Shown here piece after piece: positions 131-26,804 of a stretch of 38,160 bases of DNA. How positions within the stretch are numbered: position 1 is the stretch's first letter; the number at the start of each line of letters is the position of its first letter. Source of the DNA: a virus; the IMG/VR virus record IMGVR_UViG_3300027985_000961, positions 1 through 38,160 of that record. One strand, given 5' to 3'. Position numbers and translations under genes: made by a program. Below the pieces are notes generated by a model that saw only the letters and a program-made list of their open reading frames with translations, searched no databases and was not told the DNA's origin.

Positions 131-481
131 TCAGAACAGGACGTGCTGATCCGGGTCGCCCTTGGCGCGGACGCGTGCGATGACTTTATAAATGCCACGT
201 ACGCTCATGTTGAATTTGCGCGCCAGGATGTGATGGTTGCGACCGTCGAACTCGTCATAGATCTGCTGGTCGCGCTTGCTCACTCGGTAGTGATGATCCA
301 TTGGAATCGTGAAATTCTGGCCACCCCAATTCTCTGCCAGGTGATTAGCGATCGCGCAGCCGATTTGATCAGCCTGTTCTCGCTCAACACCTAGCTCTTG
401 AGCAATCTCCGCCGCCCGCGAATGAATATCCTCCAGGAGCTCGTGGCGACGTCCTTCCATCGCGGTACCATCACGTGCCAT
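131..481 (-). CDS. mor: Mor-family transcription activator
   Basis: 116 residues. It resembles the Mor/C family of Mu: an N-terminal dimerisation region followed by a C-terminal helix-turn-helix (about residues 83-110, containing ILARKFNMSVRGIYKVIARV). Mor activates the middle promoter in Mu, which drives expression of the late activator C. An AAGGAGG ribosome site lies 6 bases before the ATG at 481. It is the last gene of the leftward early operon, 1 base after gemA, and its stop lies about 80 bases from the phage end proper. No second Mor/C family gene was found in the window, so this protein may itself act at the three late-promoter elements. That last step is inference. Confidence 0.92.
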   Translation of the reverse strand: MARDGTAMEGRRHELLEDIHSRAAEIAQELGVEREQADQIGCAIANHLAENWGGQNFTIPMDHHYRVSKRDQQIYDEFDGRNHHILARKFNMSVRGIYKVIARVRAKGDPDQHVLF

Positions 482-4992: not shown

Positions 4993-5237
4993 TCACCTCC
5001 TACCGAAACTTCGGTCTCTGGGTGTTCATCGAAAATGCCCTCAAGCTGTTCGTCGGTGGCGCCGTGTTCCTCCAAGAAGTCGAGGACACTCCAGAATCCC
5101 AACTCATTGAAGGCGACCTGCCATTCTCCGCGATCACATAGGCCAGCGATTGCCTTGGGTGAATACCGCGTCGCATCAGCAAGATCGGCCTGGGTTAATC
5201 CAAGATCTGCCAGCACCAACTTCAGTTTCAGGGCCAT
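4989..5237 (-). CDS. Stand-alone HTH protein, paralogue of MuB N-terminus
   Basis: 82 residues. The first 40 (MALKLKLVLADLGLTQADLA, then SPKAIAGLCDRGEW) form a helix-turn-helix that lines up residue for residue with the N-terminal HTH of the adjacent ATPase (shared VL, DLA, SP, AI, RG). An acidic tail follows (EEHGATDEQLEGIFDEHPET). It is tied to both neighbours by 1- and 4-base overlaps, so it is made together with transposase and MuB. It may bind the same DNA or form mixed oligomers with the ATPase. That is inference. Confidence 0.82.
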   Translation of the reverse strand: MALKLKLVLADLGLTQADLADATRYSPKAIAGLCDRGEWQVAFNELGFWSVLDFLEEHGATDEQLEGIFDEHPETEVSVGGE

Positions 5238-7006
5238 TACTCACCCCCTACCGCACGCAGCGTGGTGGGGGTCTTGCGCCGCATAGCGGCCTCAATAGAG
5301 TCCAGTTCGTCCTCTGGAATGCCCTCCGAGTAGCGCTGAACCAGCCACTGATAGTTTTCGCCGGTCCAGGCATCACCTAACCGGGCGCGCAGGCGGCGAG
5401 CGGCTTCAACATGGTTAAGCAGCATCGACTGAACTTTCGGAATCGGAACATCCAAATCGGTACCACGGCGCGGCATGTAGGTCGGCAGGGCCGCGTCAGA
5501 AACCGGCTTGTAGGGGTCGAACTGACCGTTCAATGGGATCGTTTTCGCCTTCCGCGCGGCTTCAGCTTCGCTGACCGTCTCGGTGCCGGTCATCATCTGA
5601 TCGATCGCTTTGCGCGCCTTCTGGGCCACGGTTTCAGGCAGCTGAGCATAATTCTCGCCATAGACCGGCCCGTCGATGGCGAAACCCCACTCGTCTTTTT
5701 CGACGCGTGGAACGACATGGAACGTCTCAAAACCCTCCTCATCGATCAGCACGATCTGCGCGGCATCATCACGCCAGGGATTGCGCGTAATCAGCAGCTT
5801 CTGACCGACCATGACGCCAGGCACATGGCGTACGTCGTATTCATCGCCATTGAAGGGGATGCGAAGCTTCGGCTTCACGGTACGTTCTACCGGCTCGGCC
5901 ACGGCCAATTCGCGGCAGATCTCCACAGACGGTACCTTGATCAGTTGCGTCTCGGTGATCGTCAGCCATACCGCACTGCGCGTACGACCATGCCGGGAAT
6001 GCACTGCCTGCGCGTTGAATACGCCACGCCACTGGGCGGCCAGCTCGTTCAACTCCTCCAGATCGGCCACCGGGCGGAACCGCAGGCCAGATTCAAACTT
6101 GCGTTCGATAATGTCGCGGGCCTTCTCCACCTGACCGGTGGCCCGGGCGTTACCGGCTTTGTGAGCGATCGGCTGGATGCCCAGCGCCTTGCACAGATTC
6201 CGCGTCATGGCGCTGGTGTTAGCACTACCTGGGTCCATGTAGAGGATGGATGGCCGCCCATGCATCAGGTCGGCACCACCACGCTCCTGCATCGCCTCGA
6301 TCAATACCGAGCAGAGGTTCTCGCCGGACTCTGCCCCCATCACATACTGAACGTATATCCAGCCACTGGTGTGGTCGGTAATCTCGTAGGACCAGACGCG
6401 ATTCGACATAATGCGTGCAATGTTGCGCGGCTTATTCTTATAGAACTGATCGTGCTCCATTACGTGAAGGCCGTTCGCGCCGCGCTCCCGAGGTGTCAGG
6501 TAATAGAGCACGCACAAAGAGGCGTCGATCTGCCAGACATGGTTCGGATGCAGGCTGCGCACTTCACTACAGGGCGCAGGAGCCAGCAGTTGGTCTGGGT
6601 GGAGGCCGTAGCCAACCAGTGCCCGTGAAATAGCGCTATCGCTCATCGGCACCAGCTCGCCGGTGCTTTTATCGATCCGTTCGGCGCGGATCATGCCGTT
6701 GGCGCGTAGGGCTGTAACACAATCCGGCAGGCTGTAGAGACGCTTGCCGTTGGCACGCAGCGTCTCCATCATCACGCCACTGATCAGCTGCGCCTCTTCA
6801 TAGGTCAGATCACTGCGACCGGCATCAGAGCGTTGTTTGCGGGTGGCCGCTTTCACCGTCAGCTTGTTCAGGTTGCGATGCAGCGTGGCCTGCGAAATAC
6901 CCAGATCGAGGCACGCCTTCGCATAGATCGCCTGCTTTTCGCCGTGGCCTGCCACCCTAACGGCCTGGGCGACCAGAACCAGGCGTTCCGTGATGACGGC
7001 GTTCAT
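5237..7006 (-). CDS. DDE transposase (MuA/TniA-like)
   Basis: 589 residues. N-terminal helical DNA-binding domains (about 1-50, ISQATLHRNLNKLT) precede an integrase-type RNase H core. Catalytic residues appear as D161 (HVWQIDAS), D258 (LYMDPGSAN) and E294 (GQVEKARD), giving DD35E spacing. A Mu transposase beta-barrel domain follows (RIPFNGDEYDVRHVPGV), then a helical tail that, in MuA, contacts MuB. It performs strand transfer for integration and for replicative transposition, acting at the phage ends. The start at 7006 overlaps the upstream stop (ATGA); it lacks a strong ribosome site and probably relies on coupling. Confidence 0.96.
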   Translation of the reverse strand: MNAVITERLVLVAQAVRVAGHGEKQAIYAKACLDLGISQATLHRNLNKLTVKAATRKQRSDAGRSDLTYEEAQLISGVMMETLRANGKRLYSLPDCVTALRANGMIRAERIDKSTGELVPMSDSAISRALVGYGLHPDQLLAPAPCSEVRSLHPNHVWQIDASLCVLYYLTPRERGANGLHVMEHDQFYKNKPRNIARIMSNRVWSYEITDHTSGWIYVQYVMGAESGENLCSVLIEAMQERGGADLMHGRPSILYMDPGSANTSAMTRNLCKALGIQPIAHKAGNARATGQVEKARDIIERKFESGLRFRPVADLEELNELAAQWRGVFNAQAVHSRHGRTRSAVWLTITETQLIKVPSVEICRELAVAEPVERTVKPKLRIPFNGDEYDVRHVPGVMVGQKLLITRNPWRDDAAQIVLIDEEGFETFHVVPRVEKDEWGFAIDGPVYGENYAQLPETVAQKARKAIDQMMTGTETVSEAEAARKAKTIPLNGQFDPYKPVSDAALPTYMPRRGTDLDVPIPKVQSMLLNHVEAARRLRARLGDAWTGENYQWLVQRYSEGIPEDELDSIEAAMRRKTPTTLRAVGGE

Positions 7007-9937: not shown

Positions 9938-9982
9938 GCGTGTGAATTAATAATGGTCACTATAATGACCACAGTCAAGGAG
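9938..9982. promoter_or_regulatory. Early promoter and operator, divergent switch
   Basis: On the minus strand TTGACT (9978-9973) lies 17 bases from CATTAT, giving a plausible early promoter. Its spacer contains the dyad TGGTCA-CTATAA-TGACCA (9954-9971), a likely operator. The dyad also holds TATAAT (9961-9966) on the plus strand, a probable -10 of the repressor promoter, though no good -35 is seen for it. A repressor bound here would block early transcription and could control its own gene. Confidence 0.65.
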
Positions 9983-9987
9983 TAAAT

Positions 9988-10395
9988 GTGCCTTTTGATG
10001 ACCAAAGCGGCAAAAGGCTGCAAGAGGAACGCAAGCGACTTGGACTTACTCAGCAGGAAATCGCTGACAAGGCTGGCGTACGGCGTGAGATGTGGAGCCG
10101 ATATGAGCGCGGAGCAGCCGCACCTGGCGCGGCAGTTTTTCGCGTACTAGCTGAGTTAGGGATGGATCAGCTTTATATTCTGACCGGCACTACTGTGCCG
10201 CCAGCGTCGCAACCAAGACTGTCTGAGGACGAGATGGAGCTAATAAGGCTCTTTCGCGCAGCGCCCTTGCAGGTGAAGGCAGCAGTATTGGGGGCCCTGA
10301 CGGCGGGAGGTGCTGCCGACAAGCGCAGCGACACTTCAATATCGGTTGCTGGCTCAGGCAACCGCGTGGCAGGCAAGGATTACTACGAAAAATAG
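9988..10395 (+). CDS. CI-like lysogeny repressor
   Basis: 135 residues, GTG start at 9988 with AAGGAG 5 bases upstream (an ATG two bases earlier is out of frame). Residues 8-62 are an HTH_3 domain (RLQEERKRLGLTQQEIADKA, SRYERGAAAPG, LAELGMDQLYILTG). Unlike LexA-type repressors it has no peptidase domain; a helical part (EDEMELIRLFRAAPLQVKAA) leads to a short tail ending ISVAGSGNRVAGKDYYEK. It should keep the early operon silent. The same GNRVxGxD tail motif opens the next gene. Confidence 0.88.
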   Translation: MPFDDQSGKRLQEERKRLGLTQQEIADKAGVRREMWSRYERGAAAPGAAVFRVLAELGMDQLYILTGTTVPPASQPRLSEDEMELIRLFRAAPLQVKAAVLGALTAGGAADKRSDTSISVAGSGNRVAGKDYYEK

Positions 10396-11154: not shown

Positions 11155-11295
11155 ATGAACCTATATTTTGGGCGCCTTATTTGTTTGGTAGCCGGTCACC
11201 GTTGGAAATACCAATGCACGAACGAATATGGGAAAATCTTCAAATGCTCTCGATGCGGAGTAGTTTTTGGTACTCATTGCGGTCGTATTCGCTAA
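11155..11295 (+). CDS. DUF1660-like small zinc protein
   Basis: 46 residues, beginning MNLYFGRLICLVAGHRWKYQ and ending CGVVFGTHCGRIR, with GKIFKCSRC before that. The pattern RLxCxxxGHxW followed by CxRCG is the DUF1660 phage signature, probably a zinc site formed by C, H and CxxC. It starts 8 bases after the previous gene; the ribosome site is weak (AGGT). The stop overlaps by 3 bases the stop of the convergent gene 11292-11576. Confidence 0.75.
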   Translation: MNLYFGRLICLVAGHRWKYQCTNEYGKIFKCSRCGVVFGTHCGRIR

Positions 11296-11576
11296 TCTGA
11301 TTTAGCCCGACGGAAAGCTCGACGCGCAAGGCTTGAAAGAACGGTTAGAGCACGCAGCCAACGCGCCGGATGTGCGGGTTGGCACCCAGTTTCCGATGCT
11401 TCGAATACTTCAGGTTTTGAAGGGTGGTCCGGCGCCACGCCCGCCGTGGCATCCTCGGCTGCTTCAGGGTGGGAAAACTGATTGATCTGTTGCTCAACCC
11501 AGGCCTTGTTGCTGTCCATGCGTTTTGTCATCTCGTCCAAAATTGTCTGGGTGGTAGTTCCTGATTTATCGCTCAT
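11292..11576 (-). CDS. Hypothetical minus-strand gene at boundary of late region
   Basis: 94 residues. The first half looks like a real helical protein (TTQTILDEMTKRMDSNKAWV; EQQINQFSHPEAAEDA); the second half is of low complexity and basic (WLRALTVLSSLARRAFRRAK). AGGA lies 8 bases before the ATG at 11576. It is convergent with the cassette downstream of the repressor and divergent from the late genes. No family recognised; phage B3-like genomes often keep a small gene here. Confidence 0.6.
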   Translation of the reverse strand: MSDKSGTTTQTILDEMTKRMDSNKAWVEQQINQFSHPEAAEDATAGVAPDHPSKPEVFEASETGCQPAHPARWLRALTVLSSLARRAFRRAKSD

Positions 11577-11635: not shown

Positions 11636-11657
11636 TTTTGCCCCCGTTCAAATTACT
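11636..11657 (+). promoter_or_regulatory. Late promoter element 1 (lysis block)
   Basis: First copy of the 22-bp element TTTTGCCCCCG + TTCAAATTACT. It lies 56 bases before the holin ATG. With ATTACT in the -35 place, a 17-base spacer gives GATACT (11675-11680) as a -10-like hexamer. Identical in all 22 bases to copy 2 and differing at one base from copy 3. It corresponds by position to Plys of Mu. Activation by the Mor protein is inferred. Confidence 0.7.
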
Positions 11658-11707
11658 CCTGATCTAATGCCCCCGATACTGGGGGTGTTTCTTTTTCAGA
11701 TCAGGAG
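11656..11707 (+). terminator. Nested hairpins: terminator and RBS-occluding stem
   Basis: An inner stem CCCCC (11670-11674)/GGGGG (11681-11685) followed by TGTTTCTTTTT looks like an intrinsic terminator for transcripts arriving from the repressor cassette. An outer perfect 10-bp stem CTCCTGATCT (11656-11665)/AGATCAGGAG (11698-11707) covers the holin ribosome site AGGAG. RNA starting near 11687 from the late promoter would lack the 5' arm, leaving the site free. Confidence 0.6.
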
Positions 11708-11713
11708 ATCCCC

Positions 11714-12052
11714 ATGCGTATTCCTAAAATTACACTCCCGCGTTTGGCGCTCTGCGCTGCTATTGCGATCGGGTTGCTGGCGGCTATCTGGTTCGTATCG
11801 CCGGCGCAGCTGCCTGTTGTGCTGTACAAAATCGACCTGGTCACGATTGGTGTCGTACTCGGCTACTGGCTGGATCGCACGCTGTTTCCCTATGCGCGAC
11901 CTCATGTGATGTACGGTCATGCCTATGCTGAGGAGGTGCAATCAGGCCACTGCCCGGAATCACGTGATAAACGTTTCTCTGGGGATCTGGCGGCCATACG
12001 CCGCGCTCTGATCGTTATCGCCTGCGTGCTCGGCCTGACCCTGGGGTTGTGA
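11714..12052 (+). CDS. Putative holin
   Basis: 112 residues with three hydrophobic segments: about 10-30 (LALCAAIAIGLLAAIWFV), 35-58 (LPVVLYKIDLVTIGVVLGYW) and 95-112 (ALIVIACVLGLTLGL), separated by a charged loop containing PYARPHVMYG. This matches the putative holin placed just before the endolysin in B3-like phages. It would form the inner-membrane hole that times lysis. AGGAG lies before the ATG, within the outer stem described above. First gene of the late transcript. Confidence 0.8.
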   Translation: MRIPKITLPRLALCAAIAIGLLAAIWFVSPAQLPVVLYKIDLVTIGVVLGYWLDRTLFPYARPHVMYGHAYAEEVQSGHCPESRDKRFSGDLAAIRRALIVIACVLGLTLGL

Positions 12053-19838: not shown

Positions 19839-19860
19839 TTTTGCCCCCGTTCAAATTACT
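19839..19860 (+). promoter_or_regulatory. Late promoter element 2 (protease/capsid block)
   Basis: Exact copy of the 22-bp element, 85 bases before the protease start. A 17-base spacer after ATTACT leads to TAGGCT (19878-19883), a weak -10. This is the place of PI in Mu. Short dyads downstream (TGGCG-ATA-CGCCA, 19892-19904, inside CTCAT/ATGAG) lie in the leader. CTCCG (19827-19831) just upstream could pair with the protease ribosome site CGGAG (19934-19938) in read-through RNA, less convincingly than at the other two sites. Confidence 0.7.
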
Positions 19861-19945
19861 GCGCGGCCGTCCGGTCGTAGGCTGACCTCATTGGCGATAC
19901 GCCACCCGATGAGATCCGACCAATCGAACAAACCGGAGTAGCCAT

Positions 19946-26736: not shown

Positions 26737-26758
26737 TTTTGCCCTCGTTCAAATTACT
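26737..26758 (+). promoter_or_regulatory. Late promoter element 3 (tape measure block)
   Basis: Third copy of the element, TTTTGCCCTCG + TTCAAATTACT, one change (C to T) from the others. 49 bases before the tape-measure ATG, the position of PP in Mu. A 17-base spacer reaches CACCAT (26776-26781), a poor -10. Shared upstream context beyond the 22 bases is not obvious. Confidence 0.68.
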
Positions 26759-26777
26759 CCCCGCCTGACCAATGCCA

Positions 26778-26804
26778 CCATCACCTGAGTAATCCAGGTG
26801 GTGG
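26778..26804 (+). promoter_or_regulatory. RBS-occluding stem at tape-measure start
   Basis: CCATCACCTG (26778-26787) pairs with CAGGTGGTGG (26795-26804) in a 10-bp stem with one T-G pair and a 7-base loop, 3 bases before the ATG at 26808. The 3' arm includes the ribosome site AGGTGG. RNA starting about 26788 would lose the 5' arm. Confidence 0.6.

Follow-up and report, generated by a model that had tools for sequence, protein, structure and literature searches.

Transposase genes of the insertion sequences IS10, IS50 and IS200 are guarded by RNA structure, in that RNA arriving from outside the element folds over the transposase ribosome site whereas transcripts of the inner promoter leave it uncovered. 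In phage T4, the long early RNA of gene e is translated about 100-fold less and the late promoters lie just 5′ of the ribosome site, an arrangement that prevents premature lysis; soc, gene 49 and I-TevI of the same phage are grouped with gene e in review (PMC3014915). Phage Mu offers two further points of reference. Its late promoters Plys, PI and PP are served by the activator C (PMC4461284) and its Mor dyad is centred at −43.5 of a promoter without a −35 element (PMC4287176), while translation of its mom gene is activated by Com (PMC6483171).

Here we describe the junction at which the repressor cassette of a Mu-like phage meets the holin gene. As in T4 gene e, the Shine-Dalgarno sequence (SD) is buried in a helix of the long upstream RNA, judging by predicted fold and opening energy, and the late RNA would lack the 5′ strand of that helix, judging by the −10 register and a scan of start positions. 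A preliminary description of this DNA had drawn the comparison with gene e, aptly, the logic being the same (PMC3014915). The two differ in that T4 late promoters are replaced here by a Mor/C-type activated promoter, the helix encloses a predicted intrinsic terminator and the tape-measure gene is also guarded; sequences and phage group are unrelated. The likeness is apparently convergent and not one of homology, suggesting an independent origin of the T4 gene e trick in another phage group.

With the Mu promoters Plys, PI and PP the locus shares an upstream dyad and a −10 element without a −35, and both phages have three late operons, placed before lysis, protease and later structural genes. 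Mu uses C at its late promoters whereas Mor would serve here, and the third promoter is at gene P in Mu but at the tape-measure gene here. As with Com and mom, translation of a late gene in a Mu-like phage would be controlled at the mRNA level; mom, however, needs the Com protein, whereas here the position of the RNA start would itself avoid the lock. From the insertion sequences the locus differs in what is guarded, lysis or tail genes instead of a transposase. We found no description of an SD lock in Mu-like phages in the open literature searched, and as the subscription literature lay mostly outside that search, priority is uncertain.

Identity of the Phage and Its Late Promoters

The window, by which we mean the whole 38,160-nt stretch of viral DNA analysed, represents a B3-like (B3-type, Mu-like) transposable phage based on its gene content, and its lysis region has distant similarity to that of Pseudomonas phages such as B3 (table 1). 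The product of the Mor-family gene is likely the activator of the window's late promoters. The HTH repressor gene occupies the position of the repressors of B3 and Fc02, and RNA of the cassette that it heads would run on towards the holin gene, downstream of which the endolysin (12049) and spanin (12747) genes follow on the plus strand. A search of the viral contig collection with the holin returned no match; the endolysin query was successful.

Two smaller features near the cassette were observed. A 94-aa ORF without Pfam or PHROG match lies on the minus strand (11292–11576), in the interval that separates the repressor cassette from the holin promoter, and the Marinobacterium locus L002 may carry a different minus-strand ORF at the corresponding place. 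Just 5′ of the repressor gene stands the palindrome ATGGTCACTATAATGACCAC (9953–9972), possibly an operator at the lysis–lysogeny switch.

Table 1. Coordinates of genes, promoter elements and RNA features in the window
Feature	Position	Strand	Basis or remark
Mor-family late transcription activator gene	131..481	−	PF08765, E 1.4e-33; phrog_532 (late transcriptional activator), E 5.8e-32
Transposase gene	5237–7006	−	phrog_310
HTH repressor gene, head of plus-strand lysogenic cassette	9988..10395	+	PF01381 / phrog_8
Activator dyad of late promoter P1, TTTTGCCCCCGTTCAAATTA	11636..11655	+	Repeated at 19839 and 26737; matrix score 28
5′ arm (anti-SD), CTCCTGATCT	11656..11665	+	Perfect complement of 11698–11707; fold; shuffle p 0.02
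Predicted nested intrinsic terminator, 10-pair hairpin 11666–11689 plus T-tract	11666..11697	+	
Putative −10 element of P1, GATACT, in terminator loop	11675..11680	+	xAxxxT register
Predicted late RNA start	11687..11688	+	7–8 nt past −10; 42.5–43.5 bp from dyad centre
3′ arm, AGATCAGGAG, containing holin SD AGGAG (11703–11707)	11698..11707	+	
Holin gene, ATG at 11714	11714..12052	+	PF13272, E 2.8e-27; phrog_1528, E 4.5e-34
Activator dyad of P2, before head protease gene (19946)	19839..19858	+	Identical to TTTTGCCCCCGTTCAAATTA
Activator dyad of P3, before tape-measure gene	26737..26756	+	One mismatch to TTTTGCCCCCGTTCAAATTA
P3 hairpin GCCACCATCACCTG/CAGGTGGTGG over tape-measure SD	26774..26804	+	Fold; opening energy

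The 20-bp block TTTTGCCCCCGTTCAAATTA directly adjoins the 5′ arm of the holin stem, and the expected number of recurrences of such a block in shuffled sequence is 0. A weight matrix built from it finds exactly three strong plus-strand late-gene sites in each of the window, B3 and Fc02, which precede the holin, head protease and tape-measure genes, besides weaker scattered scores on both strands. In Fc02, these three sites match the late clusters delineated by strand-specific RNA-seq, which are three in number and run on the forward strand, the holin-endolysin genes standing at the head of the first (PMC9936078). Many relatives have the block as a clear inverted repeat (e.g., TTTTCGGCTAGCCGAAAA), a form that would be expected of a dimer site of the Mor/C type. 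By sequence, a Mor/C-activated promoter is thus represented by its dyad near −43.5, its −10 hexamer at the matching distance and a phage-encoded activator of the Mor/C family.

The Holin Leader

The preliminary description had reported a perfect 10-bp stem over the holin ribosome site enclosing a hairpin and a T-rich tract. The stem is exact, with the SD in its 3′ arm, and the enclosed features are present as AATGCCCCCGATACTGGGGGTGTT followed by TCTTTTTC. These comprise a G+C-rich hairpin with a T-tract directly after it on the transcribed strand, predicted to be an intrinsic terminator, whose stem is the longest among the terminator-like sites between 9.0 and 13.2 kb. Because the T-tract lies within the outer loop, the outer stem can form only in RNA that has passed the point of termination.

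All evidence on structure is thermodynamic prediction at 37 °C. The RNA from 11640 to 11730 folds at −31.1 kcal/mol compared with −17.1 ± 2.9 kcal/mol in dinucleotide shuffles (z −4.8), and none of 200 shuffles was as good. When the 99 ORF starts (at least 90 codons) were ranked by the longest perfect complement over the ribosome-site region, the holin came first with 10 bp, the next value being 8 and most being 0–6. We calculated the free energy of opening the SD in three kinds of RNA, namely read-through RNA, RNA begun at the promoter, and read-through RNA with shuffling confined to the 31 bases 5′ of the predicted start. For the holin, the values were 11.7, 3.1 and on average 6.0 kcal/mol, respectively (p 0.02).

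The leader matches no known RNA family, a comparison with Rfam at the gathering score having given 0 matches in 14 sources. Positions 11657–11716 have a sub-threshold match, probably by chance, to Mu-gpT-DE RNA (16.7 bits against a gathering score of 49), the name of which points to Mu-like phages as the origin of that family. Covariation counted in alignment A1, in which one row is misaligned by one base in the inner stem, did not exceed that in shuffles and is uninformative, and we rely instead on the finding that unrelated arms recur at a constant register. A role of the arms as repeated operators was rejected, the window holding no third exact copy.

Start of the Late RNA

To locate the −10 element, we scanned with only the 20-bp matrix and looked for a conserved offset downstream. 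Of 17 leader families, 16 combine an A at position 41 with a T at position 45 (xAxxxT), compared with 3 for the runner-up offset; the test is not fully blind because the members of the matrix had first been gathered with a longer model including the −10 region. Relatives of the window's tape-measure promoter, which lie outside the matrix, agree with the register (CACCAT, GAGGAT). The preliminary description had placed a candidate −10 element in the inner loop, where the conserved register independently selects GATACT, a sequence with only a moderate match to the consensus. It had also proposed a start near 11687, and we too infer that the late RNA would start there, inside the lock, given the register and the distance from the dyad. 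The spacing is the same as in Mu Pm and Mu lys. For Mu lys, the start can be read from the design of a published oligonucleotide (20 nt downstream of the start; PMC4461284), and it falls 7 nt downstream of the −10 element TAGACT, the convention used for the window. Two other hexamers were rejected as −10 elements, namely ATTACT (11652–11657), which departs from the xAxxxT register and would keep the whole terminator in the late leader, and TCTAAT (11663–11668), whose offset is not conserved among the promoters.

The late RNA might instead start 5′ of 11656 and keep the hairpin in its leader, where an RNA-binding protein of the phage would open it in the style of Com and mom, a system that Mu possesses and for which B3 encodes a Com homologue. 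However, the −10 register and the Mor spacing both set the start downstream of the 5′ arm, a start further upstream would retain the whole terminator in the late leader, and the hairpins lack a shared sequence by which a single protein might recognise them. We regard this explanation as extremely improbable.

Proposed Mechanism

We propose that the P1 junction is a read-through lock with a late promoter built into it, and assign this reading a probability of roughly 0.8. RNA coming from the repressor cassette of the prophage would first reach the intrinsic terminator, and any RNA escaping it would keep the 5′ arm, pair it with the 3′ arm and bury the holin SD. Upon binding of the Mor-family activator to the dyad, host RNA polymerase would use GATACT as its −10 element and, as this lies inside the lock, begin the late RNA at a point past both the 5′ arm and the left side of the terminator hairpin. 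Missing both, this RNA would be neither terminated nor closed, and the holin would be translated. We infer the binding of the activator, the read-through RNA and its amount, and the effects on translation and termination together with their size. The earlier suggestion that long RNA is stopped or closed while RNA from about 11687 is translatable gains support from the dyad, the register and the recurrence of the arrangement, with unrelated sequences, in many relatives and at a second promoter of this phage. The lock does sit at a cassette-to-late junction, as had been claimed, but the design is not specific to that setting, since the tape-measure gene is guarded by the same kind of lock.

Such a lock would explain how the lysis genes of a transposable prophage remain silent although they are downstream of, and in line with, a transcribed repressor cassette. 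It would also constitute a compact natural design for shielding toxic genes from read-through.

Recurrence in Relatives

In the lysis leaders of most relatives, and in the tape-measure leader of the window, the SD pairs just upstream of the predicted start by means of unrelated sequences, its partner bases being located on average 3 to 28 nt 5′ of the start in most leaders. In the opening-energy shuffle test, p ≤ 0.05 was reached by 10 of 16 family representatives chosen by motif and by 5 of 64 gene starts taken from these loci as controls. RNA begun at the promoter had an opening energy lower by 4 kcal/mol or more in 25 of the 35 late leaders and in 5 of the 64 controls (Fisher p 7e-11, an optimistic value since the 35 include some loci added by eye and some that are related); a list with one leader per clade, also containing some loci added by eye, gave a combined p of 7e-10. 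Scanning the start position, we found that occlusion disappears between −8 and +1 in L102, L099, L103, L083 and L011. Several lineages with the same promoter (L021, L014, L061, L081 and L118) had no significant lock in the shuffle test of opening energy. Pattern matches in L225–L227 lie outside lysis leaders and were dismissed as chance.

The sequences forming these stems vary widely. Marinobacterium L002 and L003 share the activator block with the window but have other hairpins over the SD (GGCGTC...GACGCC and CTGACTGT...ACAGTCAG; z −6.3 and −5.3), with no terminator. In the enterobacterial L098, L099 and L102, GTCTCC just 5′ of +1 pairs with GGAGAC at the SD, and the Comamonas loci have the stem GACGTCC/GGACGTC. 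Outer stems of the ATTCCAGA/TCTGGAGT type are found in the beta-proteobacterial L101, L104, L105, L108 and L132, most of them enclosing a terminator hairpin and T-tract, which is the double lock of the window; a terminator nested within an SD stem in this manner is likewise seen in relatives other than the beta-proteobacterial ones.

These comparisons bear on the possibility that only the terminator matters, ending the repressor operon, and that the outer stem is either a reinforcement of it or an incidental feature. As a predicted intrinsic terminator, the nested hairpin is good and surpasses all others on the plus strand after the repressor, and perfect 10-bp inverted repeats are, taken alone, not rare in the window, where 10 pairs with a spacer of at most 60 were listed, including some overlapping registers of one repeat. 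Yet L002, L003 and P3 of the window close the SD by a hairpin without any terminator, many unrelated leaders have the arm at the SD itself, and the outer 3′ arm, coming after the T-tract, can be of no help to termination. We therefore consider it unlikely that the terminator acts alone.

Still less probable, in our view, is that the inverted repeats around +1 work as DNA, for example by binding a protein (the activator or some other) or by facilitating the opening of the promoter, with RNA pairing as a by-product. This would fit hairpins that straddle +1, and the tape-measure leaders of B3 and L141, in which the straddling hairpin has no obvious SD in its 3′ arm. Against it, the dyad is conserved but the hairpin sequences are wholly different from promoter to promoter within one phage and from relative to relative, the paired bases coincide with the SD, and the activator already has its dyad upstream.

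Extending the read-through lock beyond the window, we think it fairly probable that Mu-like lineages have repeatedly evolved late promoters in which the −10 element and the start lie inside a hairpin closing the ribosome site, often with a nested terminator. The choice of start would then verify the promoter identity of late mRNAs (lysis, tail), a check conserved in architecture and not in sequence. A rule without sequence dependence, namely a hairpin across +1 that closes the SD, may predict late promoters and starts of Mu-like phages.

In Mu itself, PI (L230, 18022–18058) has the hairpin CTGCTCA/TGAGCAG across the mapped +1, just 5′ of the start codon of gene I. Its opening energy is 9.8 at −8 and 2.1 at +1, with a poor choice of SD by the program, and according to this model read-through RNA would occlude the start region of gene I. 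At Mu lys, the opening-energy scan revealed no SD lock.

A different dyad, of the GGTGAA-N4-TTCACC type, was observed in the beta-proteobacterial L101 (3480–3530), L104, L105, L106, L108 and L132, at a similar distance upstream of the −10 elements GACACT or GAAACT. This suggests that a second activator specificity may feed the same lock design in these relatives.

The Tape-Measure and Protease Promoters

At P3, the hairpin arms, which can also be written CCACCATCACCTG/CAGGTGGTGG, include the putative −10 element CACCAT (26776–26781) in the 5′ arm, and the predicted start (26788) is the first base of the loop. Opening of the tape-measure SD would cost 16.0 kcal/mol in read-through RNA compared with 6.9 kcal/mol in promoter-started RNA (p 0.035). 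Hairpins of the P3 type are present in L136–L140.

The P2 leader, before the protease gene, showed little effect and no clear SD lock in the scan of opening energy by start position. The corresponding protease promoters of B3 (L135, 19835–19889) and Fc02 (L219, 20100–20154) have a likely ATG at the predicted +1, near 19887 and 20152, respectively, which suggests that the late protease mRNA of these phages may be leaderless. In both, a short hairpin (GCCGCC/GGCGGC and GGCGC/GCGCC) ends at the ATG, and the annotated protease start of B3 (19857) would fall within the promoter.
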